From positions 37,063 through 101,062 of the forward strand of contig JAJYXE010000024.1 of assembly GCA_021791145.1 (NCBI GenBank): a stretch of 64,000 bases of DNA, given 5' to 3'. The notes beneath the pieces were generated by a model. It was not told the origin of the DNA. It was given only the letters and a program-made list of their open reading frames with translations, and did no database searches. The position numbers and the translations under genes are program-made. Shown here piece after piece: positions 3,193-64,000 of this stretch. Each line of letters opens with the position of its first letter. Within the stretch, counting starts at the first letter, position 1. The stretch is from Actinomycetes bacterium. Its GTDB lineage: Bacteria > Actinomycetota > Acidimicrobiia > Acidimicrobiales > RAAP-2.

Positions 3193-3933
3193 CTACCGCC
3201 GCGCCGCCAAAGGGTCGCCGGGCGCCGCGTGGTCGGCCCCTTCGGCACGACGTCCGCCGGTCCGCAGCTCTCGGACCGCCCCCCGCTTGCCGCCGCGCAC
3301 CGTCTGGTCGTGCACCATCTGGTGGTCGTGCACCATCTGGGCGAACAGCCGTTGGAGACGACGGTCCGGCGTGAGCTCCGGATGGAACGTCGCGGCGAGC
3401 ACATGACCCTGGCGGAGGACCACCGGGTGGGGGCCTTGCGAGCTCTCCGTGCCGAGCACGTCGACTTCGTCCGACACCTCGGTCACGAGCGGCGCCCTGA
3501 TGAAGACCGCGGGCAGCGGTCCTTCGCCGACTCCCAGGGCCCCGTCGAGGAGCTCCACATCCGCCTCGAAGGAAAAACGCTGGGGGCCATAGCCGTTGCG
3601 ACGCACCGTGCAGTCGAGCGCCCCGAACGACACCTGGTCCGCGCGCCCGTCCTCGACCCGGGCAGCGAGCAGGATGAGGCCGGCGCACGTCCCGAAGGTC
3701 GGCAGGCCCTCGGCGATCGCCTCGCGCACGGGGACGGACAGCCCCGAGGACTCGAGCAGCATCGAGAGCGTCGTCGACTCGCCGCCCGGCAGCACCAGAC
3801 CGTCGAGCTCGTCGAGGTCGCGGGGCCACCGCACACGGCGGGTCGCCAGGCCCACCTCACGAAAGGCGGCCTCGTGCTCCAAGACGTCGCCTTGGAGGGC
3901 GAGGACGCCGACCGTCGCCGCCGGCTCCTCCAC
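3193..3933 (-). CDS. pdxT: PdxT, glutaminase subunit of pyridoxal 5'-phosphate synthase
   Basis: Class-I glutamine amidotransferase that supplies ammonia to PdxS for vitamin B6 synthesis. GGEST and the nucleophile-bearing GTCAGLILLA (Cys near residue 83) are present, with the catalytic His and Glu in FHPE. At 246 residues it is longer than the usual ~190-200. The extra ~45 residues after LFAQMVHDH are polar and contain a short internal repeat (MVHDHQ/MVHDQ), so the real end of the fold is probably near residue 200. It starts 2 bases after the pdxS stop, so the two are co-transcribed. Confidence 0.95.
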   Translation of the reverse strand: MEEPAATVGVLALQGDVLEHEAAFREVGLATRRVRWPRDLDELDGLVLPGGESTTLSMLLESSGLSVPVREAIAEGLPTFGTCAGLILLAARVEDGRADQVSFGALDCTVRRNGYGPQRFSFEADVELLDGALGVGEGPLPAVFIRAPLVTEVSDEVDVLGTESSQGPHPVVLRQGHVLAATFHPELTPDRRLQRLFAQMVHDHQMVHDQTVRGGKRGAVRELRTGGRRAEGADHAAPGDPLAARR

Positions 3934-3935
3934 CG

Positions 3936-4841
3936 CTACCAGCCGCGGTCGGCCAGCCGCTCGCCGAGCTCGGAGATCTCCTCACCGCGCATGGCCCCGC
4001 CGAGCCCACGGCTCACCTTGGCCACATGGTCGGCGTCCTCGAAGTGGGTCGTCGCCTCTACGATCGCCCGGGCGCGGCGGGCGGGGTCCTCGCTCTTGAA
4101 GATGCCCGACCCGACGAAGACGGCTTCGGCCCCGAGCTGCATGACGAGCGCCGCGTCCGCAGGCGTCGCGATCCCCCCCGCACAGAAGAGCGGGACCGGC
4201 AGCTTGCCGGTCTCGGCGATCTCGTGGACGAGGCCGATCGGGGCGCGCAGCTCCTTCGCCCACCCGTAGAGCTCCGCGGCATCTGCCTGCCCGACCTTGC
4301 GGATGTCGCCGACGATCGAGCGAAGGTGGCGCACCGCCTCCACGATGTTGCCGGTGCCGGCCTCACCTTTGGAGCGGATCATCGCCGCACCCTCGGAGAT
4401 CCGCCGCAGCGCCTCCCCGAGGTTCGTCGCGCCGCACACGAAGGGCACCGTGAACGCCCACTTGTCGATGTGGTACGCCTCGTCGGCCGGCGTGAGGACC
4501 TCGCTCTCGTCGACGTAGTCGACGCCGAGCGCCTGGAGGACCTGCGCCTCGGCGAAGTGGCCGATCCGCGCCTTGGCCATCACCGGGATGGTGACCGCCT
4601 CTTGGATCCCCTCGATCAGCGCGGGGTCGCTCATCCGCGCGACGCCGCCCTCCCGCCTGATGTCCGCCGGGACCCGCTCGAGCGCCATCACCGAGACCGC
4701 GCCGGCGTCCTCGGCGATCTTCGCCTGCGTGGCGTCGACGACGTCCATGATCACCCCGCCGCGCAGCATGTCGGCGAGCCCCCGCTTCACCGTGAAGGTG
4801 CCGGTCTCACGTCGCCCGTTCGCCGTCGTCATGGGTGGCAT
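3936..4841 (-). CDS. pdxS: PdxS, pyridoxal 5'-phosphate synthase lyase subunit
   Basis: TIM-barrel subunit that makes PLP from ribose 5-phosphate, glyceraldehyde 3-phosphate and PdxT-derived ammonia. The 301 residues match the family almost end to end: [14 protein letters not shown], the substrate-binding lysine in MAKARIGHF, and [10 protein letters not shown]. The phosphate-binding segment is [14 protein letters not shown] followed by [11 protein letters not shown]. The ATG at 4841 gives a short N-terminal tail ([16 protein letters not shown]) as in relatives. A second ATG at residue 4 is possible. It forms an operon with pdxT. Confidence 0.97.
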
Positions 4842-4928
4842 CCTACCGGCTGCGCCCCGCGGTCCCCGCCAGACCCACTCGACGTCTGCCGGGCGGCTCC
4901 GGGCGCCGGGGGGCGCGCTGCGACCGGG

Positions 4929-6116
4929 CTACCACTCCCCCAACGCGTCGATCCGAACCGCGGTCACGTCGAGCTCCCCGGCGGGCGCCGCCCCGCCGGT
5001 GCCGGCCATCGGGTCGATCCAGATCCATCGGGTGGCCGCCCAGCGGCGGCCCGTGAACGGGGACGCGGTGCCCGAGGGCCGCCCGCCCATGGAGGCGAGC
5101 GCGTCGTGCAGGCCCGGCGGGTAGCGGACCGCGAGCGCCGCTGCCTGGTCCGCCTCGTACTCCCGGCCCCGTCCGACGGCGGCGTGCACGAGCTGGTCCC
5201 TCCCGGTCGCCCACGCCAGCAGCCCGACGGTCGCGAGCGCCACGGAGGAGACCTCGGCGTCGCGCCGCTTCACGTGGACGAGCTCGTGGGCCACCACACC
5301 CTCCATCTCGATGAGCCCGACCCTCGACAGGAGGCCCGAGGTGACGACCAGCACCGCGCGACCGCCGCGACCGGCGAGCGCGCATGCGTTGGCGACCGCG
5401 TCGTCCACGAGCCGCAGCTCGGGCCGCGCGACGCCGATGGTCGCACAGAGCCCCTCGACCTGGTTGAACAGGGCAGGCAAGCCACCCTCGCCGACCTCGC
5501 TGCCGCCCACCAGGCGGAGCGCGAGCCACATCGACCCCGTCGAGACGAAGACGCCTGCGACCACGAACACCACCACCGCGGCTGCCGCACCGGCCACGGT
5601 CCCCACGGTCACCCCGAGGACCACGCCGAGGAGGATCGCCGGTGCTGCCGACGCGCCCATCGTGAGCATGCGCAGGCGGACGCCGTTGGCGCGCCGCCTC
5701 GCCTCGTTGCGCGCATCGGCGAGCTCGTGCGCGCCGAGCTGGGTACCTGCAGCCTGCGGCAAACGGACCTCCGGGGAGCTCGAGGCACTGCCCCGCCGGC
5801 GCCCGTGCGCCGTCCCTCCCGGCGCCGTCCGCCCGGTCGACGCCGGCTTGCGGCGCGCCGCCCGGGACGCCTCCCCAGCCGACCTCAGCGCGGCGCCGGC
5901 TCGGGGCTCGCCCCGCGCGGCCGCCTTCGGGGCAGAAGACCTCCTCCCTGCGGCGGGCCCGGACCGGGGCAGCGACGGGGCGCCGGGGCTGGAGGAGCCC
6001 GCCGCTGCGCTCCCCGAGCCGCGGTCCTGGGCGGGGCGGCCCGGGACCGAGCCCTTCGGCTTTCGCGTGCGACCACGTGGCGCACCACGCTCACGGTCTG
6101 CGCCGGTCTCGCTCAT
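4929..6116 (-). CDS. M48-family (HtpX-like) membrane zinc metalloprotease
   Basis: The zinc-binding HELVH helix lies at about residues 276-280, and the third ligand is in EYEADQAA about 50 residues later, both diagnostic of peptidase family M48. Two hydrophobic segments lie in residues about 150-205. The first ~110 residues are rich in Arg, Pro, Ser and Ala and look disordered; such a tail is not usual for HtpX and may be partly mis-started. HtpX-type enzymes degrade misfolded membrane proteins. The ATG overlaps the stop of the PimA-like gene, so it is the next gene in that operon. Confidence 0.85.
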   Translation of the reverse strand: MSETGADRERGAPRGRTRKPKGSVPGRPAQDRGSGSAAAGSSSPGAPSLPRSGPAAGRRSSAPKAAARGEPRAGAALRSAGEASRAARRKPASTGRTAPGGTAHGRRRGSASSSPEVRLPQAAGTQLGAHELADARNEARRRANGVRLRMLTMGASAAPAILLGVVLGVTVGTVAGAAAAVVVFVVAGVFVSTGSMWLALRLVGGSEVGEGGLPALFNQVEGLCATIGVARPELRLVDDAVANACALAGRGGRAVLVVTSGLLSRVGLIEMEGVVAHELVHVKRRDAEVSSVALATVGLLAWATGRDQLVHAAVGRGREYEADQAAALAVRYPPGLHDALASMGGRPSGTASPFTGRRWAATRWIWIDPMAGTGGAAPAGELDVTAVRIDALGEW

Positions 6117-57906: not shown

Positions 57907-58278
57907 CCAGACGGTCGCCTACACCGGCGTTTCGAAAGACCAACCCCTTGCGGGAACCGTCCTGGCCAAAGGGGGTGTCGACGGGAGGGTGTGCCGTAAC
58001 ACCCGCCCGCAAATAAGCCCGGTGACGGGGGCTATGTGCGACACCCCGGCCGGGACGCGCGCTGCCCGGCGGCCGAGCAGTGGGGTGCTTTCCTCGGCCG
58101 CCCAGCGTCGCTCCGAAAGCTCCTCCTGGCGCCGACGACAACAAACCGGGCGGCACGGGTCGGCTCACGCATATCGACGTACCTGAAGAAGCGCTCCTGT
58201 CAAGGGGTCTTCGACGGAGTCGAAGGCGATTTTGTGGGGGGCCTTTGCCGTCGATGACGGGGATGTGGGCGCGTGTGA
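57907..58278. other. Gene-free stretch leading into the IS21 remnant
   Basis: No gene is supported. It contains the inverted repeats at 57972-58047 and then unremarkable G+C-rich sequence. The short open frame ending near 58257 (GVFDGVEGDFVGGLCRR) is not recognisable. The beginning of the insertion-sequence fragment may lie here. Confidence 0.5.
57972..58047. repeat. Nested inverted repeats, possible insertion-sequence end
   Basis: GGGGTGTCG (57972-57980) pairs with CGACACCCC (58039-58047). Inside, GGGTGT (57987-57992) pairs with ACACCC (57999-58004) around GCCGTA. Located about 230 bases before the IstA fragment, it could be the left end of that element. Confidence 0.5.
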
Positions 58279-58706
58279 ACTCCCGGGCGCGGCCTCGAGG
58301 CGTCGTTCCTCGAAGAGCTCGCCGTGCTCGGCCCGCCGGCCTCGGTCGCAGAGCTCAACGCTCTGGCGTCGGCGTGGCTGGCCCCCCGGGTGAATGGCCG
58401 GACCCACGAAACGATCAAAGAGCGCCCCGTGGACCGCCTCGAGGCCGAGCGGCGGTTCCTTGCGCCCCTTCCCCGCCGCCGCTACGACACCGCCTACGCC
58501 GTGCCTCGGCGGGTCCACCTCGCCGTCCCGCTCGTCCACTGGAAGGGCGTGCGCTACTCGGTCACACCCGCCTGCATCGGACAGAAGGTCGCGTGCAGAG
58601 AGGAGGTCGACTCGGAGCTGCTCACCATCACCTGGGCCGGACAAGACGTGGGTCGCCACGCCATTTCGCCTCCCGGCTCGCCCGACGTGTGGGACCCCGA
58701 CCACCC
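58279..58706 (+). mobile_element. IS21-family transposase (IstA) remnant, C-terminal part only
   Basis: After a TGA at 58276 the frame reads SFLEELAVLGPPASVAELNALASAWLAPRVNGRTHETIKERPVDRL, then LEAERRFLAPLPRRRYDTAYAVPRRVHLAVPLVHWKGVRYSV and LLTITWAGQDVGRHAISPPGSPDVWDPDH. This is the C-terminal domain of IstA. The catalytic DDE domain and the HTH region are absent, and no istB follows. At about 58700 the same frame passes directly into the N-terminus of a tyrosine integrase (DPDHPM/GTFRRKKDAEAW), marking a deletion or recombination junction. Confidence 0.82.
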
Positions 58707-59746
58707 GATGGGCACGTTCCGACGCAAGAAGGACGCGGAGGCGTGGCCAACGACCACGGAAGCCGACCGGCTCTGCGGCGTCGTCGTCGATCCTCGAGGC
58801 GCCAGGACGCCGTTTCGCGAAACCGCCAGGCGGTGGCTCGAGGTCAAGACGACGGGCGAGCTCCGTCGCTCGAGACCGCGCCATCATCGACAACCATTTG
58901 GCTCCCGTCCTCGGCGATCGGGCGATCGGGTCGATCACGCGAGCGGACGTCCAAGCGCTCGTCGACGGCTGGGCATCGAAGAAAGCACCGTCCACGGTCG
59001 GACGGCAGTACTCGTGTCTCCGCGCGATCTTCGCATTCGCCGAGGCCGACGAACGGATCGTGCGGTCCCCCTGCCGCGGTATCCGGCTGCCGCAGGTCCA
59101 TCTCGTCGACCGGCCGGAGCTCCAGGCGGAACAGCTCTCGGCACTCGCCGAGGCGCTCGGGCCGGCCGAAGGCCCGATGATGTGGCTCGGCGCGGTGCTC
59201 GGCCTGCGATGGGCGGAGGTAGCGGGGCTGACCGTCGACCGGGTGAACTTCCTCGCAGGCAGGGTCACCGTCGGTCGGCAGCTCACCCGGCAGCGTGTGA
59301 TCGCGGCACCGAAGTCCGCCGCAGGCAAGAGATCGCTTGCTGCACCCAGCTGGCTGATGGAGGACCTGGCGGCAGTTCTGGCGAGGCGCGACCTCACCGC
59401 CGCCGATGGCGACACTCTCGTCTTCGTGAACCGAGACGAGGGCCCGCTCGACTACTCGGACTGGCGCCGACGGGTCTGGGGTCCTGCGTGCGTGCAGGCG
59501 CAACTCCCCCACCTCCGTTTCCACAACCTCCGATCGACGGCTGCCACCGCGCTCGTCGCGGCCGGCGTCGACATCAAGACCGCACAACGACGGCTCGGCC
59601 ACTCGTCGCCCCACGTGACGCTGGCGCTTTACGCGCGGGCAACGGCCTCCGCCGACCGCCAGGCCGCGGAGCTCGTCGGAGACATGTTGCGCTCGCATCG
59701 ATCGATCGATGGGGCGGCCTCGAAGCGAGCGCACCGATCCACGTAG
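58707..59746 (+). pseudogene. Tyrosine recombinase/integrase, 5'-truncated and frameshifted
   Basis: The N-terminal arm-binding part (GTFRRKKDAEAWPTTTEADRL, RETARRWLEVKTTGELRRS) is in the frame of the IstA fragment. At about 58865 homology moves to another frame (SVARDRAIIDNHLAPVLGDRAIGSITRADVQALVDGW), apparently by a small deletion between GTCGCTCGA-like copies. The catalytic domain is intact to 59746: Arg in LGLRWAEVAGL, HNLRST, the second His in LGHSSPHVTLALYARA, and the Tyr in that segment. The full protein cannot be made without frameshifting. It probably once mobilised this region. Confidence 0.8.
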
Positions 59747-59874
59747 TTGTCCCACCGTGCGGTCGCCAGTGGCAGCGCAAGCTGGCAAGCTCGTTGCCTG
59801 CGCGATCGACGCGCGATGACTCTTCGGAGCGACTCGGGGCGGTGGAGTTTCTAACGACTGAGCAGGGGGAACTT

Positions 59875-59902
59875 GGTGGGCCGTAGACGCTCGTATTCGA
59901 AC
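59875..59902 (-). repeat. Conserved element copy 1, downstream of VapBC
   Basis: On the plus strand: GGTGGGCCGTAG, three variable bases (ACG), then CTCGTATTCGAAC. It lies 54 bases after the vapC stop (59956) on the strand of transcription. It shares at least 20 positions with the copies at 60585 and 61484, in the same orientation. Confidence 0.8.
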
Positions 59903-59955
59903 TTCGAGGAGATTCGAGATCGGATCGGCGGCGTGGCTCCTCCGTGGAGCAGAGG

Positions 59956-60348
59956 TCAGGGATCGAAAAAGTGAAGCGCCGGTAGGACGGCCCGAACTCG
60001 TTTGAAGTCCGAGTCGCGAGTCCAGAGGCGGGCAGACGAGTCGACAGCGGCAACCGCGATCTCGACATCGGTTAGCGCGACGGTTTCGCCGCGCTCGCGC
60101 AGACGTGCCGCCGTTTCCCCGACGCTTTGCCACTGGACCGGGCCGAGGTCGGCCCACGGCAATCCCGTCAACAAGAGCCAGAGCCTTCCTCGGTCGGGCG
60201 ACCTTGCGCCGGCGAGCAACTCTGCGACGACTGAGCCACATACCAGAACCTCCCCCGCCACGAGGAGGTCATCCAATCGGGCCGACTTCGATCCTTTCCC
60301 TCGTCGCAGGTACTCGACCCAAACCGAGGTATCGGCGAGAACCGTCAA
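59956..60348 (-). CDS. VapC-type PIN-domain ribonuclease toxin
   Basis: 130 residues from TTG 60348, whose TTG overlaps the antitoxin stop (TTGA). PIN-domain acidic residues are VLADTSVWVEYLRRG (first Asp), the Glu in VVAELLAG, and DVEIAVAAVDSSARLWTRDSDF (third and fourth acids). Ends in FDP as is common for VapC. Such toxins cleave tRNA or rRNA when freed from VapB. It is one of three toxin operons facing the same way. Confidence 0.9.
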   Translation of the reverse strand: MTVLADTSVWVEYLRRGKGSKSARLDDLLVAGEVLVCGSVVAELLAGARSPDRGRLWLLLTGLPWADLGPVQWQSVGETAARLRERGETVALTDVEIAVAAVDSSARLWTRDSDFKRVRAVLPALHFFDP

Positions 60349-60548
60349 GTCGTTCGGTCAGTTGCGCGCAGGTGCCGGGAAACGTCCTCGATATCCACCG
60401 TTCCTGCGAGTTGCCGGAGCTGGTCGACAGCGTCGTGCGTGAGGTAGAAGCGCACCGCTCGCTGGATGGCCTCGGTCTTCGACACGCCGGGAAGACGCGA
60501 CATAAGAGAGGCGAGGAGGACGTCGTCAAGCTCGAGGGTCGTTCGCAC
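60345..60548 (-). CDS. VapB-type antitoxin
   Basis: 67 residues from GTG 60548. MRTTLELDDVLLASLMSRLPGVSKTEAIQRAVRFYL is a ribbon-helix-helix DNA-binding domain like those of VapB/CopG antitoxins; the tail would wrap the VapC active site. AAGG lies against the GTG. Upstream, TGCCA (60559-60563) and TGGCA (60571-60575) form a small inverted repeat that could be the autoregulatory operator. Confidence 0.88.
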   Translation of the reverse strand: MRTTLELDDVLLASLMSRLPGVSKTEAIQRAVRFYLTHDAVDQLRQLAGTVDIEDVSRHLRATDRTT

Positions 60549-60584
60549 ACCTTCAGTATGCCATAGAATCTGGCAGATTTGAGC

Positions 60585-60612
60585 CGTGAGCCGTAGTCAC
60601 TCGTACTCGAAC
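60585..60612 (-). repeat. Conserved element copy 2, downstream of the Phd/VapC pair
   Basis: Plus-strand GTGAGCCGTAG, three variable bases (TCA), then CTCGTACTCGAAC. It lies 35 bases after the toxin stop at 60647. Copies 1 and 2 also share the flanking TT after GAAC. Confidence 0.75.
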
Positions 60613-60646
60613 TTCTCTAAGCTGCACTCTCGCGTCGCCGCCCTGA

Positions 60647-61060
60647 TCACGCCCGGTTCGGTTCGCCTGGCCTCTCGACGGCAAGGCCTAGGTTCTGGGC
60701 GGCCTCCGCCATCCGAAGGTCGTAGGTGACGACGGCTTGTAGATCCCCTCCGACGACCTGCGCAGCTGCCAGGTGGATCGCATCGAGACTTCGCAACTGG
60801 ACGTTCGGGGTCAACGTAGCGGCGCGATCGAGCACCTCGGTGCTCAGCAGGATCTGGTCGAGGCGGGAGAGCTGTCGACGCGCGTGCGCGATGGCGGCAG
60901 GACCGCCGATGAGGACCGCTCTCACCACTTCCACTCGCGAAAGTGCGCTCGTCACGAGCTGGTCAGCACGGTGACGACGCAGGAAGCGCCGCAAAGCGTC
61001 CGACTGTGCCTCTCGCTGGACAAGCTTCACCAACGCGGACGAGTCGAGATAAAGCCTCAT
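60647..61060 (-). CDS. PIN-domain toxin (VapC family), second copy
   Basis: 137 residues from ATG 61060, overlapping the antitoxin stop as ATGA. LYLDSSALVKLVQREAQSDAL carries the first Asp and Lys of this VapC subgroup. Further acids are in LSRVEVVRAVL, LRSLDAIHLAAA and VVTYDLRMAEAA. It belongs to a different VapC subgroup from the toxin at 59956 (LDSSALVKL versus ADTSVWVEY), so the two operons are not a simple duplication. Confidence 0.9.
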   Translation of the reverse strand: MRLYLDSSALVKLVQREAQSDALRRFLRRHRADQLVTSALSRVEVVRAVLIGGPAAIAHARRQLSRLDQILLSTEVLDRAATLTPNVQLRSLDAIHLAAAQVVGGDLQAVVTYDLRMAEAAQNLGLAVERPGEPNRA

Positions 61061-61323
61061 CGCTCCTCAGCGCGCATCGCCGCCAGTCGGGCCGAAGCGT
61101 CGATGCCGTAGTCGTTCGGTGGGTCGTCGACCACATCGCCCTCGCCAGACGCGGCGAGAACCTGGCCGCTCGCCACGAGGTCCTGCCACCGGTCTTCATG
61201 AGTGGGAACGAGCAGTGCGACAAGCCGCCCTCGATCGGTCACCTCAATCGTCTCTCCGGTCGCAACCCGGGCGAGGTACCGACTGGCATGTTGGCGAAGC
61301 TCTCTGACCCCGATCCGTTCCAT
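61057..61323 (-). CDS. Phd/YefM-type antitoxin
   Basis: 88 residues from ATG 61323: MERIGVRELRQHASRYLARVATGETIEVTDRGRLVALLVP is the Phd/YefM fold that binds DNA and starts most such antitoxins. The C-terminal tail (DVVDDPPNDYGIDASARLAAMR) would neutralise the PIN toxin. The ATG directly follows an 8-bp palindrome with no room for a Shine-Dalgarno, so the message may be leaderless, or a GTG further upstream may be used. Confidence 0.88.
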   Translation of the reverse strand: MERIGVRELRQHASRYLARVATGETIEVTDRGRLVALLVPTHEDRWQDLVASGQVLAASGEGDVVDDPPNDYGIDASARLAAMRAEER

Positions 61324-61342
61324 AGTGCTACATAGTAGCACT
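61324..61342 (-). promoter_or_regulatory. Perfect palindrome abutting the Phd/YefM antitoxin start
   Basis: AGTGCTAC (61324-61331), ATA, GTAGCACT (61335-61342): eight-base perfect arms with a 3-base centre, touching the ATG. This is the expected place for the antitoxin-toxin complex to bind and repress its own promoter. Confidence 0.7.
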
Positions 61343-61452
61343 CGCAGTCCGGGCGAGGATCGGCACCGTCCCGGACGAGAACCGCAACGGTTGAACGAAA
61401 GGGGGATACCCGGTACCGGCCCAACGCGCGAACAGCAGAGACCCGCGGTCCT

Positions 61453-61512
61453 GGTTCGAATAGCGACCTACGGTCTCGAATCTGGTGGGCCGTAGGAACT
61501 CCTATTCGAACC
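61453..61512. repeat. Conserved element copy 3 within a long hairpin, downstream of RelBE
   Basis: Copy 3 of the element (61484-61511: GGTGGGCCGTAG, GAA, CTCCTATTCGAAC) is the right half of an inverted repeat. GGTTCGAATAG (61453-61463) pairs with CTATTCGAACC (61502-61512), 11 bases without mismatch, and CCTACGG (61467-61473) pairs with CCGTAGG (61490-61496). A 16-base loop and small internal asymmetry remain. It lies 48 bases after the RelE-type toxin stop at 61560. Confidence 0.8.
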
Positions 61513-61559
61513 AGCGCGAACTGCAGGAGCGCATCAGGTCCCTGTTCGGAAACTGACGC

Positions 61560-61823
61560 TCAGCGCGGGTCGGTCGAGTACGCAACGGACCGGTGACGGA
61601 CAGCGAGCACGCGCACCAGACGCTGATCGTCGTCCACTTGGTAGATGATTCGGTACGTACCGACTCGAAGTGACCGCAGCCCGCGTAGCCGTCCCCGAAG
61701 CAGGTGACCGGCCTCGGGCTCACGCTCGAGAAGTCCGAGAGCCTCGACCACGGCGTCGGAGAGTGGCCAGTCGAGGTCGACGATCTCCTTGCGAGCGCGC
61801 CGGGCGAGCTCGACCCGACTCAC
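61560..61823 (-). CDS. RelE/ParE-superfamily toxin
   Basis: 87 residues from GTG 61823, overlapping the antitoxin stop as GTGA. VELARRARKEIVDLDWPLSDAVVEAL, then LRGRLRGLRSLRVGTYRIIYQVDDDQRLVRVLAVRHRSVAY, is the RelE fold with its catalytic basic residues and C-terminal HR-x-x-Y. RelE-type toxins cut mRNA on the ribosome; a ParE-like gyrase toxin is less likely given YRIIY and the HRSVAY end. Confidence 0.9.
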   Translation of the reverse strand: MSRVELARRARKEIVDLDWPLSDAVVEALGLLEREPEAGHLLRGRLRGLRSLRVGTYRIIYQVDDDQRLVRVLAVRHRSVAYSTDPR

Positions 61824-62101
61824 CTTCTACGGCGCGACTGCAGTTCCCGGCGGACGTCATCGAGCGTCAGCGTCTCGCCGCGCTCCACTTCGCGCCGGCC
61901 CTCGTCGATAGCGGCCATCGTCTCGGCGTCCGACAAGATCTCCGCCGTCTCTTCCAAAGCCTCGTACTCATCCACTGGGACGAGGACGGCCGCCGGTCGG
62001 CCGTGGCGGGTAACGATGACGTGTTCGCGCAGGTCGGCAACCTGGTCGATGACCTGGCTGAGCTCAGCGCGAAGCTCACGAACAGGGACGGTCTTACTCA
62101 T
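61820..62101 (-). CDS. RelB/Phd-type antitoxin
   Basis: 93 residues from ATG 62101. VPVRELRAELSQVIDQVADLREHVIVTRHGRPAAVLVPVDEYEAL is the Phd/YefM-like DNA-binding domain that often pairs with RelE toxins. The C-terminal half (ETMAAIDEGRREVERGETLTLDDVRREL) is the usual toxin-binding tail. A palindromic operator lies 8 bases upstream. Confidence 0.9.
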   Translation of the reverse strand: MSKTVPVRELRAELSQVIDQVADLREHVIVTRHGRPAAVLVPVDEYEALEETAEILSDAETMAAIDEGRREVERGETLTLDDVRRELQSRRRR

Positions 62102-62108
62102 GCAGCAA

Positions 62109-62128
62109 GTGTACTATATTGAGTACAC
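62109..62128 (-). promoter_or_regulatory. Palindromic operator of the RelBE-type operon
   Basis: GTGTACT (62109-62115), ATATTG, AGTACAC (62122-62128): perfect seven-base arms in an A+T-rich island, 8 bases upstream of the antitoxin ATG. The TATAGTAC-type core on the minus strand may double as the -10 region. Confidence 0.75.
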
Positions 62129-62203
62129 ATCGTCCGGTGGTCTCCACTTGTCACAGTACGAGACGACCTTCGACGGCACGACCTCGTGCGTTCACCCAGG
62201 TAG

Positions 62204-62890
62204 ATGGCCCTGTGCTTCGCCTCCCAGCGCTCGGGACGGTGCTGCGCCAGAGCCCCGCCGAGGCTCCTGCTCACCCGTCCGACCCCGGTCGTCGCCTCTC
62301 TCCCGGTCCAGCGACGTCTTGCACCTGGCGAGGTGGCAGAGCTGGTTGCGGCCTACCGTAGGGGTGTCCCCGTCGAGGACCTGGCGGCGGCGTTCCGCGT
62401 GCATCGGACGACGGTGCTCGGCCACGTCCGGCGCCACGGTGTGCCCAAGCGGGAGCGCCGGGCGCTCCAGGGAGAAGATCTAGGCCGGGCTGCCCAGCTC
62501 TACGCCGAGGGCCGATCGGCTGCCTGGGTGGCCGTGCAGTTTGGCGTGGCAGCGAGCACCGTCCAGCGTGCTTTGAAGGAGCCGGTGTTGCCCTGCGGCC
62601 CGGAGGGCGGGCGCGTCGCGGTGAGCGCGCAGTGCAGTAGCGGGTGCCTTGGCGAGTCCGGCCCGGCTAGCCAGGCCCAAACACCCATCGACGAGCGGGA
62701 CGGCCGATCAAGGCGCATCCGCCTTCGGCGTTGGGCGATTTCCGATCTCGCTCACGTCGTCGCGAGGCGAGCCCACCTTGGCGAGAAGGCTGGCCTTGCT
62801 CTGTGCCGGCGGGCGCGGTGGATCTCCTCGGCCCGGCTCGTCAATCGGAGCCCCGACGACCGCGCGCCGATCTCGGGCTTGACGCTGTGA
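62204..62890 (+). pseudogene. Double helix-turn-helix fragment, probably of a serine recombinase
   Basis: Only the middle of this 228-residue open frame looks like protein. VQRRLAPGEVAELVAAYRRGVPVEDLAAAFRVHRTTVLGHVRRHGVPKR and AAQLYAEGRSAAWVAVQFGVAASTVQRALKE (about 62306-62590) are two consecutive helix-turn-helix units, as in the C-termini of actinobacterial resolvase/invertase proteins. The catalytic N-terminal domain is missing and the rest of the frame has no recognisable content; its end overlaps the DHFR-like gene. Likely a remnant. Confidence 0.55.
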
Positions 62891-63485
62891 CCTCGAGCGG
62901 GGGGTGGTCGAGGACCCGTGGGCGGTGCTCCACGAGCTGGATCCGTTGATCGAACGTCCTGGCGGTGATCATGTCGAGGGCGACGTCGGGGTAGCCGTCG
63001 TAGATGCGCTCACGACCGGTGGCGCCGGTGATGACCGGGAACATCACAACTCGGAACCGGTTGACGAGCCCAGCTCGCAGCAGCGACCGGCACAGGCTGA
63101 TGCTGCCGATCGTGCTCAAGACGCCCGGACCATCCGTTTTCATCGCCCGCACCGCCTCGACCGCGTCGCCGCGTACGAGGGTCGTGTTCGCCCAGGTGAG
63201 AGGTTCTTCGAGGGTGGAGGAGAACACCACCTTCGACGCTTCGGTCAGTCCTGCGTTGGCGGCCTCCTCCTCGGTGGAGAACTCGTCGATCCCCGCCGGG
63301 GCGACGCCGGCGGCGAAGCCCGACATCAGCCGGTACGTGGCCGCACCCATGAGCAGCGTGGACTCGGGTCGCTCGCCGAGCCACCCGAGGTACTCGGGGC
63401 CTTCGAGGCCCCACCACCCCGGCCACCCTTCCGCCGATGCATAGCCGTCCAGGGAGGTGATGAAGTCGACGATCAGCTCTCCCAT
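62841..63485 (-). CDS. Dihydrofolate reductase/RibD C-terminal domain family protein
   Basis: 214 residues from ATG 63485. LIVDFITSLDGYASAEG is the family N-terminus, followed by LLMGAATYRLM, SKVVFSSTLEEPLTWANTTLVRGDAVEAV, LSTIGSISLCRSLLRAGLVNRFRVVMFPVITGATGRERI. These YyaP/YwjB-like proteins have a DHFR-like NADPH fold and mostly unknown substrates. The last ~35 residues are an Arg/Ser tail. It follows the AHSA1-type remnant by 37 bases on the same strand; the pair is a common actinobacterial arrangement. Confidence 0.88.
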   Translation of the reverse strand: MGELIVDFITSLDGYASAEGWPGWWGLEGPEYLGWLGERPESTLLMGAATYRLMSGFAAGVAPAGIDEFSTEEEAANAGLTEASKVVFSSTLEEPLTWANTTLVRGDAVEAVRAMKTDGPGVLSTIGSISLCRSLLRAGLVNRFRVVMFPVITGATGRERIYDGYPDVALDMITARTFDQRIQLVEHRPRVLDHPPLEVTASSPRSARGRRGSD

Positions 63486-63522
63486 GCTGCGCTCCCCGCG
63501 TCCTCGGCCGCAGCGCGCGCCG

Positions 63523-63876
63523 TCATCGGGCGAGGAGCGCGTCGAGCTTGCGGTAGCCATCCTGGACGCCGACCTCCATGCCGCTTCTGACGAACGCGTC
63601 GCGGGCCTCGAAGCTGTCGGCCAGCGACGTTGCAGTGAGCCGGCAACGGCCCCCTGGGAGGTCCTCGAAGACGAAACGCCCCAGAGACACGTTGTCGGCC
63701 ACCGGCTCGTAGGTGAAGGGCTGGACGATGAGCTCGTCGGGTCGGACCTCGTGGAAGCAACCCCGAAACCAGTGCTCCTCGTCGCCTCGAACAGAGACGT
63801 AACGCCACTCGCCGCCGGTGCGGCAGTCCCACCGGTCGACGCGGGAGGAGTCGAGGCTGTCGGGGCCGACCCATTG
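63523..63876 (-). pseudogene. SRPBCC/AHSA1-family protein lacking its N-terminus
   Basis: From 63876 the frame reads WVGPDSLDSSRVDRWDCRTGGEWRYV, then GCFHEVRPDELIVQPFTYE and TATSLADSFEARDAFVRSGMEVGVQDGYRKLDALL, the C-terminal three quarters of an AHSA1 protein. A TAA stop lies directly before the first of these codons. The usual first ~35 residues (ending in ..W.GP) are absent in every frame upstream, and no start codon fits until the Met near the C-terminus. Sequence quality is otherwise good, so truncation is probably recent. Confidence 0.7.
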
Positions 63877-64000
63877 TTAGCGGCGTGACTTCCTGATCAC
63901 GACTGGCCAGGTCTCGGCGGCCCTCTTCGTGCATCGGTCTGGGCTGAGGCTGGCCGACGGGAACCCGATAGCAGGAGGATGAGCCGTCCCCCGAACGCGA

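Follow-up and report, generated by a model that had tools for sequence, protein, structure and literature searches.

We analysed a 64,000-nt stretch of an Acidimicrobiales genome (contig JAJYXE010000024.1, positions 37,063 to 101,062; hereafter the window), where three toxin-antitoxin (TA) operons are accompanied by copies of one short element. Comparison with related sequences identifies this element as the end of a large serine recombinase (LSR) gene together with a candidate half of the LSR attachment site. It is probable that the element serves as half of the attP site and that each TA unit is a mini integrative cassette which is mobilised in trans.

The window scan yielded three copies of the element at 59875-59902, 60585-60612 and 61484-61511, all on the plus strand, with zero, two and zero mismatches to its consensus, respectively. 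No match was observed in 100 dinucleotide shuffles. This agrees with the initial annotation, which had reported three copies in the same orientation; its distances from the toxin stop codons at 59956, 60647 and 61560 are correct to within one base. The ~28-nt sequence it had described is present, but the conserved part is longer: the copies have an abrupt left boundary at GTGG, followed by approximately 50-60 conserved nucleotides to the right. In 70 non-redundant copies, columns 1-27 are nearly invariant, except for columns 12, 14 and partly 18. The consensus of integron attC sites consists of the boxes GTTRRRY and RYYYAAC. As stated in the initial annotation, the element does not fit it: nearly all copies end with TATTCGAAC. 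The half-sites, denoted P', are located as follows.

59876..59935, plus strand: P' copy 1, left end of cassette 1, no mismatch to the consensus
60586..60645, plus strand: P' copy 2, left end of cassette 2, 2 mismatches in the core
61485..61544, plus strand: P' copy 3, left end of cassette 3, no mismatch to the consensus

The LSR genes encode proteins with the Pfam domains Resolvase, Recombinase and Zn-ribbon. They end at tRNA genes of the same type as those at which the cassettes are docked, coming from the opposite strand. A script applied to 31 LSR 3' ends found an opposite-strand tRNA after 16 of them (including L189, a distant LSR with the tRNA further off), the element after three, and neither after 12. 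The LSR 3' end contains GTTCGAATACG, a mirror of CGTATTCGAAC from the element about GTGG/GCC, 46 bp in total; the natural LSR/element junction in L068 deviates at the outermost base of this dyad. Such a dyad is the expected shape of the attP of a serine recombinase. The LSR tail encoded by the element has the form ..VVGRRHSYSNxxDVRKR... Among the best 120 of 2092 LSR homologues, two end with VVGRRHSYSN..DVRKR.., five with VVESRFPYSNRDLLRERL.. and one with RCRYSNLGQLRDRL.., and 76 match antisense-tRNA tail motifs. It is these native LSR tails and the mirrored dyad that assign the element to the LSR gene end and to half of its att site.

Three mini units of L127 precede a full LSR element, which abuts tRNA-Val(gac). 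This element (L127 2864-9941) looks autonomous and encodes a DNA methylase, a Replic_Relax protein, the LSR and two genes with no Pfam match. In L104, a degenerate stretch with an LSR-like start (3890-5503) lies between tRNA-Val(gac) and a TA cassette. Related LSR genes ending at tRNA-Gly, tRNA-Leu and tRNA-Ala genes are found among L172, L173, L175, L178, L180 and L187, and those of L174 and L188 presumably end at transfer-messenger RNA (tmRNA). The arm GTTCGAATACG is present in most related LSR genes of the set L172-L175, L178, L180, L187 and L188.

The element copies themselves have a nearly fixed orientation relative to tRNA genes. There are 23 tRNA genes within 2.5 kb of the copies: 22 are downstream with the 3' end towards the element, none is downstream in the opposite sense, and one is upstream (28 downstream facing and one upstream, if copy-tRNA pairs are counted). 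With the limit set at 3.7 kb, 25 docked junctions were obtained, involving tRNA-Val(cac) (8), tRNA-Tyr (7), tRNA-Val(gac) (5), tRNA-Val(tac) (4) and tRNA-Leu(taa) (1). The docked tRNA ends carry GTGGGC in 24 of the 25 junctions and GTGGCC in L158. At three junctions (L005, L104, L142) the tRNA is adjoined by LSR-type or similar ends. Since the right side of the element stays near-constant GCCGTAG irrespective of the tRNA, the exchange probably lies within GTGGGC and leaves the tRNA gene whole; the docked tRNAs are still called by ARAGORN. We considered the possibility that the element is a tRNA-derived repeat and dropped it, as the element has little beyond GTGGGC in common with most docked tRNAs.

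An empty docking site was observed in relatives of G034. In this genome a 373-bp unit resides at tRNA-Leu(taa). In two of nine relatives the same gene is present, tRNA-Leu(taa) lies 154-163 nt beyond the matched flank, and the element is absent. Among the six other genomes from the genus of G002, a similar search did not recover the flank.

The unit borders were compared using 118 unique junctions, of which 112 are element copies and six are tRNA-Val sites, with duplicates over the 160-nt context collapsed beforehand. About the GTGG core, 60 element pairs are alike only on the right, 24 junction pairs only on the left, and none on both sides. The right-only pairs involve 54 copies from 19 families, have left agreement scores 0-7 and exclude 10 trivial tRNA-tRNA pairs. 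The left-only pairs (21 element-element and three element-tRNA) involve 27 junctions from 10 families. In the latter three pairs one and the same flank has a tRNA beside it in one genome and the element in another (e.g. L003 vs L131). The LSR end behaves in the same way: L127 and L042 have a common left side, with the tRNA in one and the element in the other.

The window array has a counterpart at the same locus in G018, as the region to the right of the window array matches this genome. The shared region, the cassettes and the closing core are listed below.

62882..63876: region in common with G018, 84%, matching G018:C18 2002-2993
59876..60585: cassette 1, P' and VapBC; matches the second cassette of the G018 array at 84.7% over 718 nt, alignment stops at the cores
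60586..61484: cassette 2, P' and Phd/VapC; no match in the orthologous G018 contig
61485..62136: cassette 3, P' and YefM/RelE-ParE; matches the first cassette of the G018 array at 95.4% over 658 nt, alignment stops at the cores
62137..62140, plus strand: GTGG, the fourth junction core, at which cassette 3 closes, with no element after it; homology to the G018 cassette stops here

The order is VapBC, Phd/VapC, RelE in the window and RelE, VapBC in G018. Thus two cassettes are swapped and the Phd/VapC cassette is missing, and both alignments end at the cores (on the window side, 61483-62140, 658 nt, for RelE and 59875-60592, 718 nt, for VapBC); the comparison involves one relative, represented by a 5,610-bp contig of a metagenome-assembled genome (MAG). 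Of the three genomes of this family only G018 matches the window flanks, and the other two have no match. A tRNA-Val(tac) gene is located in G018 about 0.8 kb past the window homology, and by this offset the tRNA-Val(tac) of the window would lie past the window end. The cassettes with a common recombination site suggested in the initial annotation are supported by the order and loss in G018 and by the 84 junction pairs elsewhere. The annotation had also proposed, as a test, to look for gain or loss of single operons with breakpoints inside the element, and the orthologous locus in G018 indeed shows loss and reordering with cuts at the cores. Genome comparison documents the site, the unit borders, the changes of order, the docking at tRNA genes, and both the LSR/tRNA and LSR/element junctions.

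The right ends of the units are less uniform. An arm similar to GTTCGAATA is present in 18 of 139 left flanks, starting 31 nt (16 flanks) or 30 nt (two flanks) before the junction and followed by a hairpin. It recurs at the ends of unrelated TA units. An arm of the second type, TTCGAGTCC, was found at 67-68 in nine of the 139 flanks. Arms of these two types might be P halves belonging to the cassettes. Other units have no recognisable right-end arm.

Cutting at the copies produced 114 units, 34 of which are closed by the next copy and 21 by a tRNA, whereas 59 have no second border within 2 kb. The length of closed units is 600-900 bp in 42 of 55 cases. A panel of TA proteins matches 50 of the 55 closed units and 13 of 69 chromosome-side flanks (stretches of at most 1 kb; Fisher p 9e-17). 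The panel, mostly Pfam-verified, was made from these same cassettes and is thereby biased towards them, and units related to one another do not count as independent. The TA counts cover 113 of the 114 units. In 44 of the 50 closed TA units an open reading frame (ORF) still spans 85% or more of a panel protein, and in representative units toxin and antitoxin families are side by side. The observed kinds are VapBC with several antitoxin types, YefM/RelE, HicAB of two sorts, MazF with CcdA or ribbon-helix-helix partners, TacA with a GNAT protein, and AbiEii. The best panel match is on the plus strand in 49 and on the minus strand in 34 of the 83 matched units, six of which encode the membrane protein described below. 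Thus the position of the element just after the toxin gene, noted in the initial annotation, holds in the window and does not hold in general, being tied to one orientation of the operon, and the shared 3' regulatory element offered there as another possibility is unlikely, since the TA operons occur in either orientation.

Four of the five unmatched closed units encode a ~160-aa membrane protein, and the fifth (L104) spans the degenerate LSR end. The former represent a recurrent non-TA cassette that encodes a probable membrane protein with two helices, identified by eye, and a small partner frame (L127 2255-2734; units in L128, L131, L136, L039 and L040). Its Pfam matches are weak, sub-threshold or absent, and it is possibly an unrecognised toxin or defence pair. 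Cassettes of the AbiEii type (type IV TA), about 1.26 kb long, were found in two genomes (L131-7219, L024+314); the L131 protein was scanned, and the frame in L024 looks broken. In L137-1936, the copy is followed by a reverse-transcriptase gene (RVT_1) in place of a TA pair.

The exact scan of genome contigs with the inner 23 nt of the element produced 68 matches in 58 stretches, of which 53 are from Acidimicrobiaceae, Acidimicrobiales or Actinomycetes MAGs. Among the other five, the copy in L057 (Polyangiaceae) was judged to be a chance match and left out of the TA counts. With at most three mismatches, 99 matches were found in 38 genomes, which had been selected as carriers, and none for the reversed pattern. 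In a class-wide draw the element was observed in eight of 395 genomes, five of the eight being already known carriers; a new carrier, with L104 on it, is a single contig of 2,158,157 bp that has two copies. Viral contigs contain no matches to the exact pattern, and the 51-nt consensus is unmatched in phage and plasmid records. Removal of duplicates left 115 copies, these counts resting on a profile made from the same copies. Many contigs carry two to four copies in the same orientation, mostly 500-1300 bp apart, with one site per cassette; nearly all the data come from fragmented MAGs, and many arrays end with the contig.

The window operons, encoded on the minus strand opposite to the element, have the Pfam pairs PIN/VapB, PIN/PhdYeFM and ParE/PhdYeFM. 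Their genes and other features near the array, all the genes being identified by Pfam, are the following.

59956..60348, minus strand: VapC toxin, PIN domain
60345..60548, minus strand: VapB antitoxin
60647..61060, minus strand: VapC toxin, PIN domain
61057..61341, minus strand: Phd/YefM-type antitoxin
61560..61823, minus strand: ParE/RelE-type toxin
61820..62101, minus strand: YefM antitoxin
61454..61477, plus strand: type-a arm GTTCGAATA in the right end of cassette 2, beginning 31 nt ahead of the junction, with a short hairpin behind it
58394..59746, plus strand: frame of a tyrosine integrase, flanking the array on its chromosome side

The domains Phage_integrase, Phage_int_M and SAM-like, which are of the phage type, match residues 151-417 of the 450-aa integrase frame. 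This integrase is probably decayed, presumably with its N-terminal part in another frame. To the right of cassette 3, ahead of the G018-matching region, lies a gene for a helix-turn-helix protein (62204-62890), followed by a gene for a RibD_C-domain protein (62841-63560). ARAGORN found no tRNA in the 64-kb window, an Rfam scan of 58000-64000 gave a single match far under the gathering score, and no LSR match was found in the window.

The following model is the most probable explanation of these data. P' would be one half of the attP of an LSR whose insertion target is the 3' end of tRNA genes, the site overlapping the LSR coding end. A cassette would consist of P' at one end, the TA operon, and a free right end X abutting the next core. 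A circle with the site X/P' would insert at X0/tRNA, yielding X0/P'-TA-X/tRNA. The tRNA would be intact after insertion and open to the next one, so that rows would accumulate behind tRNA genes with the youngest cassette nearest the tRNA. Insertion of this kind would account for the borders, orientation, uniform size and shuffling of the units. We infer that the LSR acts on the cassettes in trans, that circles exist and that the rows grow in this direction.

A more far-reaching version, which we offer tentatively and consider rather doubtful, is that of a serine-integrase counterpart of the integron. In this version, tRNA 3' ends would be the docks, single TA operons would be captured via a portable half-site, and the integrase tail would change with each insertion, being of the antisense-tRNA type when docked and of the native type when a cassette adjoins. 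Such a change might switch between insertion and excision. The tail swap is a testable idea on how serine integrases choose direction.

Several observations speak against trans-mobilised cassettes. Firstly, besides the 59 units that have no second border, where the TA panel matches only 27 of the 58 examined, several copies adjoin ordinary genes. Secondly, most cassettes have no LSR-type P half, the GTTCGAATA-like arm at -31/-30 being limited to the 18 flanks mentioned above; known serine integrases need both half-sites, which makes a free X half unusual. Thirdly, at E<=1e-20 only 29 of the 41 carrier genomes yielded LSR relatives, a part of which are just ~30% identical; the MAGs may be incomplete. 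In addition, 12 of the 31 LSR ends have neither tRNA nor element after them by the script; several of the 12 are distant LSRs or fragments. Seven of the nine G034 relatives have no tRNA after the gene in question. Finally, neither a circle nor live excision was seen, the evidence for movement being comparative.

The best-surviving alternative is decay only. LSR islands stacked at tRNA genes would be reduced to a TA pair kept by addiction, leaving cis-mobilisable remnants, and the mini units would be immobile alone. This is consistent with ~7-kb elements bounded by a P' copy on one side and by the LSR gene on the side of the tRNA (L127 2864-9941, L140) and with the degenerate LSR end that follows the tRNA in L104. 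Accretion with subsequent decay is described in PMC5704250. However, exact double borders and the uniform size of 42 of the 55 closed units are not expected from random deletion, one unit recurs beside differing neighbours, and the order differs at one locus. We regard decay as a serious possibility but lean against it.

It is also conceivable that units are shuffled by RecA-type homologous recombination between the repeated elements with no site-specific recombinase involved, as direct tandem repeats could be deleted or duplicated by such exchange. However, the well-conserved part of the element is merely 27 bp, and this explanation does not cover docking at tRNAs that have little beyond GTGGGC in common with the element, the empty tRNA-Leu site, where the tRNA has no prior element, and the one-way orientation; we consider it improbable. 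A similarly low probability is given to a different recombinase, e.g. a tyrosine integrase like that at 58394-59746. Such an integrase borders the window array, the window itself has no LSR match, and tRNA 3' ends are classic targets of tyrosine integrases. On the other hand, the half-site mirroring the element about the core is the LSR gene 3' end in many genomes; of the array ends, that of the window was the one inspected for tyrosine integrases. The neighbouring tyrosine integrase pointed to in the initial annotation is thus not favoured as the agent, since elsewhere the element matches the 3' end of LSR genes beside the same kinds of tRNA.

Finally, the element could be a small coding or RNA regulatory element near TA operons, specifying either a short peptide or a convergent transcript, as conservation in the variable columns 28-60 is highest at the second codon position, and frame 0, open across 22 codons in 66 of the 70 copies, has the highest protein similarity and the fewest stops; this is very unlikely, however, as frame 0 is the LSR tail frame (LSR proteins P0034 and P0035 bear this tail), columns 1-27 are nearly fixed at every codon position, and TA operons lie on either strand. 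Frame 0 is favoured by the absolute similarity and stop count only: the column-shuffle control is exceeded by all three frames, by more in frames 1 and 2, and does not single it out. A free-standing small peptide gene was dropped as a candidate when the frame turned out to be the LSR tail.

Returning to the proposed mobile cassettes, they resemble several known systems. In integrons and superintegrons, every small cassette of the array has its own recombination site, and TA pairs are abundant. The arrays described here are likewise rows of cassettes with one site per cassette and the same orientation, but they probably have a serine recombinase, dock at tRNA genes and lack the attC consensus. 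Because of the probably different recombinase and the absence of this consensus we do not classify them as integrons. Staphylococcal cassette chromosome (SCC) elements have serine recombinases, too; they are arranged in tandem where a conserved gene has its 3' end, and some of the units have no recombinase. However, their target is rlmH and their cargo is large, whereas here the targets are tRNA genes (rlmH itself was not searched for) and the cargo is TA operons.

The arrays belong with tandem serine-recombinase elements at the ends of RNA genes, and the nearest described relatives are the ssrA islands of Dehalococcoides. According to PMC3146451, which also mentions SCC and pseudo-SCC elements with Ccr recombinases, these islands encode the CcrB-like serine recombinase DsiB and insert at an RNA-gene 3' end. 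They form tandem units with direct repeats and a conserved adjacent motif, and 15 units have no integration module. The DsiB frame runs into the RNA gene, and it was proposed that it may reach its full length only in the circular form or next to a further island (PMC3146451). The serine recombinase, the RNA-gene 3' end and the tandem direct-repeat units, some with no recombinase, are thus common to both systems. On the other hand, the ssrA islands target tmRNA and carry dehalogenase genes, and the word toxin is absent from the text (PMC3146451), whereas here there are several tRNA genes as targets, single-TA-operon units of 0.6-0.9 kb reordered between genomes, and LSRs with the half-site tail. 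The cis-mobilizable elements (CIMEs), units with no recombinase, retain att sites and accrete, as stated in PMC5704250. They are decayed integrative and conjugative or integrative and mobilizable elements, unlike the uniform one-operon units with one standard half-site seen here.

A literature search with partial coverage of subscription papers and preprints found no report of TA-only cassette arrays of this type. Thus the undescribed system proposed in the initial annotation is new only in part: tandem serine-recombinase islands at RNA-gene ends are known from Dehalococcoides (PMC3146451), but the TA-only shuffled units appear to be new. If the cassette interpretation is correct, they would offer a physical means by which chromosomal TA pairs become abundant and patchily distributed, as mobile units of 0.6-0.9 kb, and a second independent bacterial route to rows of exchangeable cassettes, based on a serine rather than a tyrosine recombinase and on tRNA docks. 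Compared with the systems above, the new features would be the TA-only, sub-kilobase, standardised and shuffled units, the several tRNA targets, and the LSR proteins displaying the tail.

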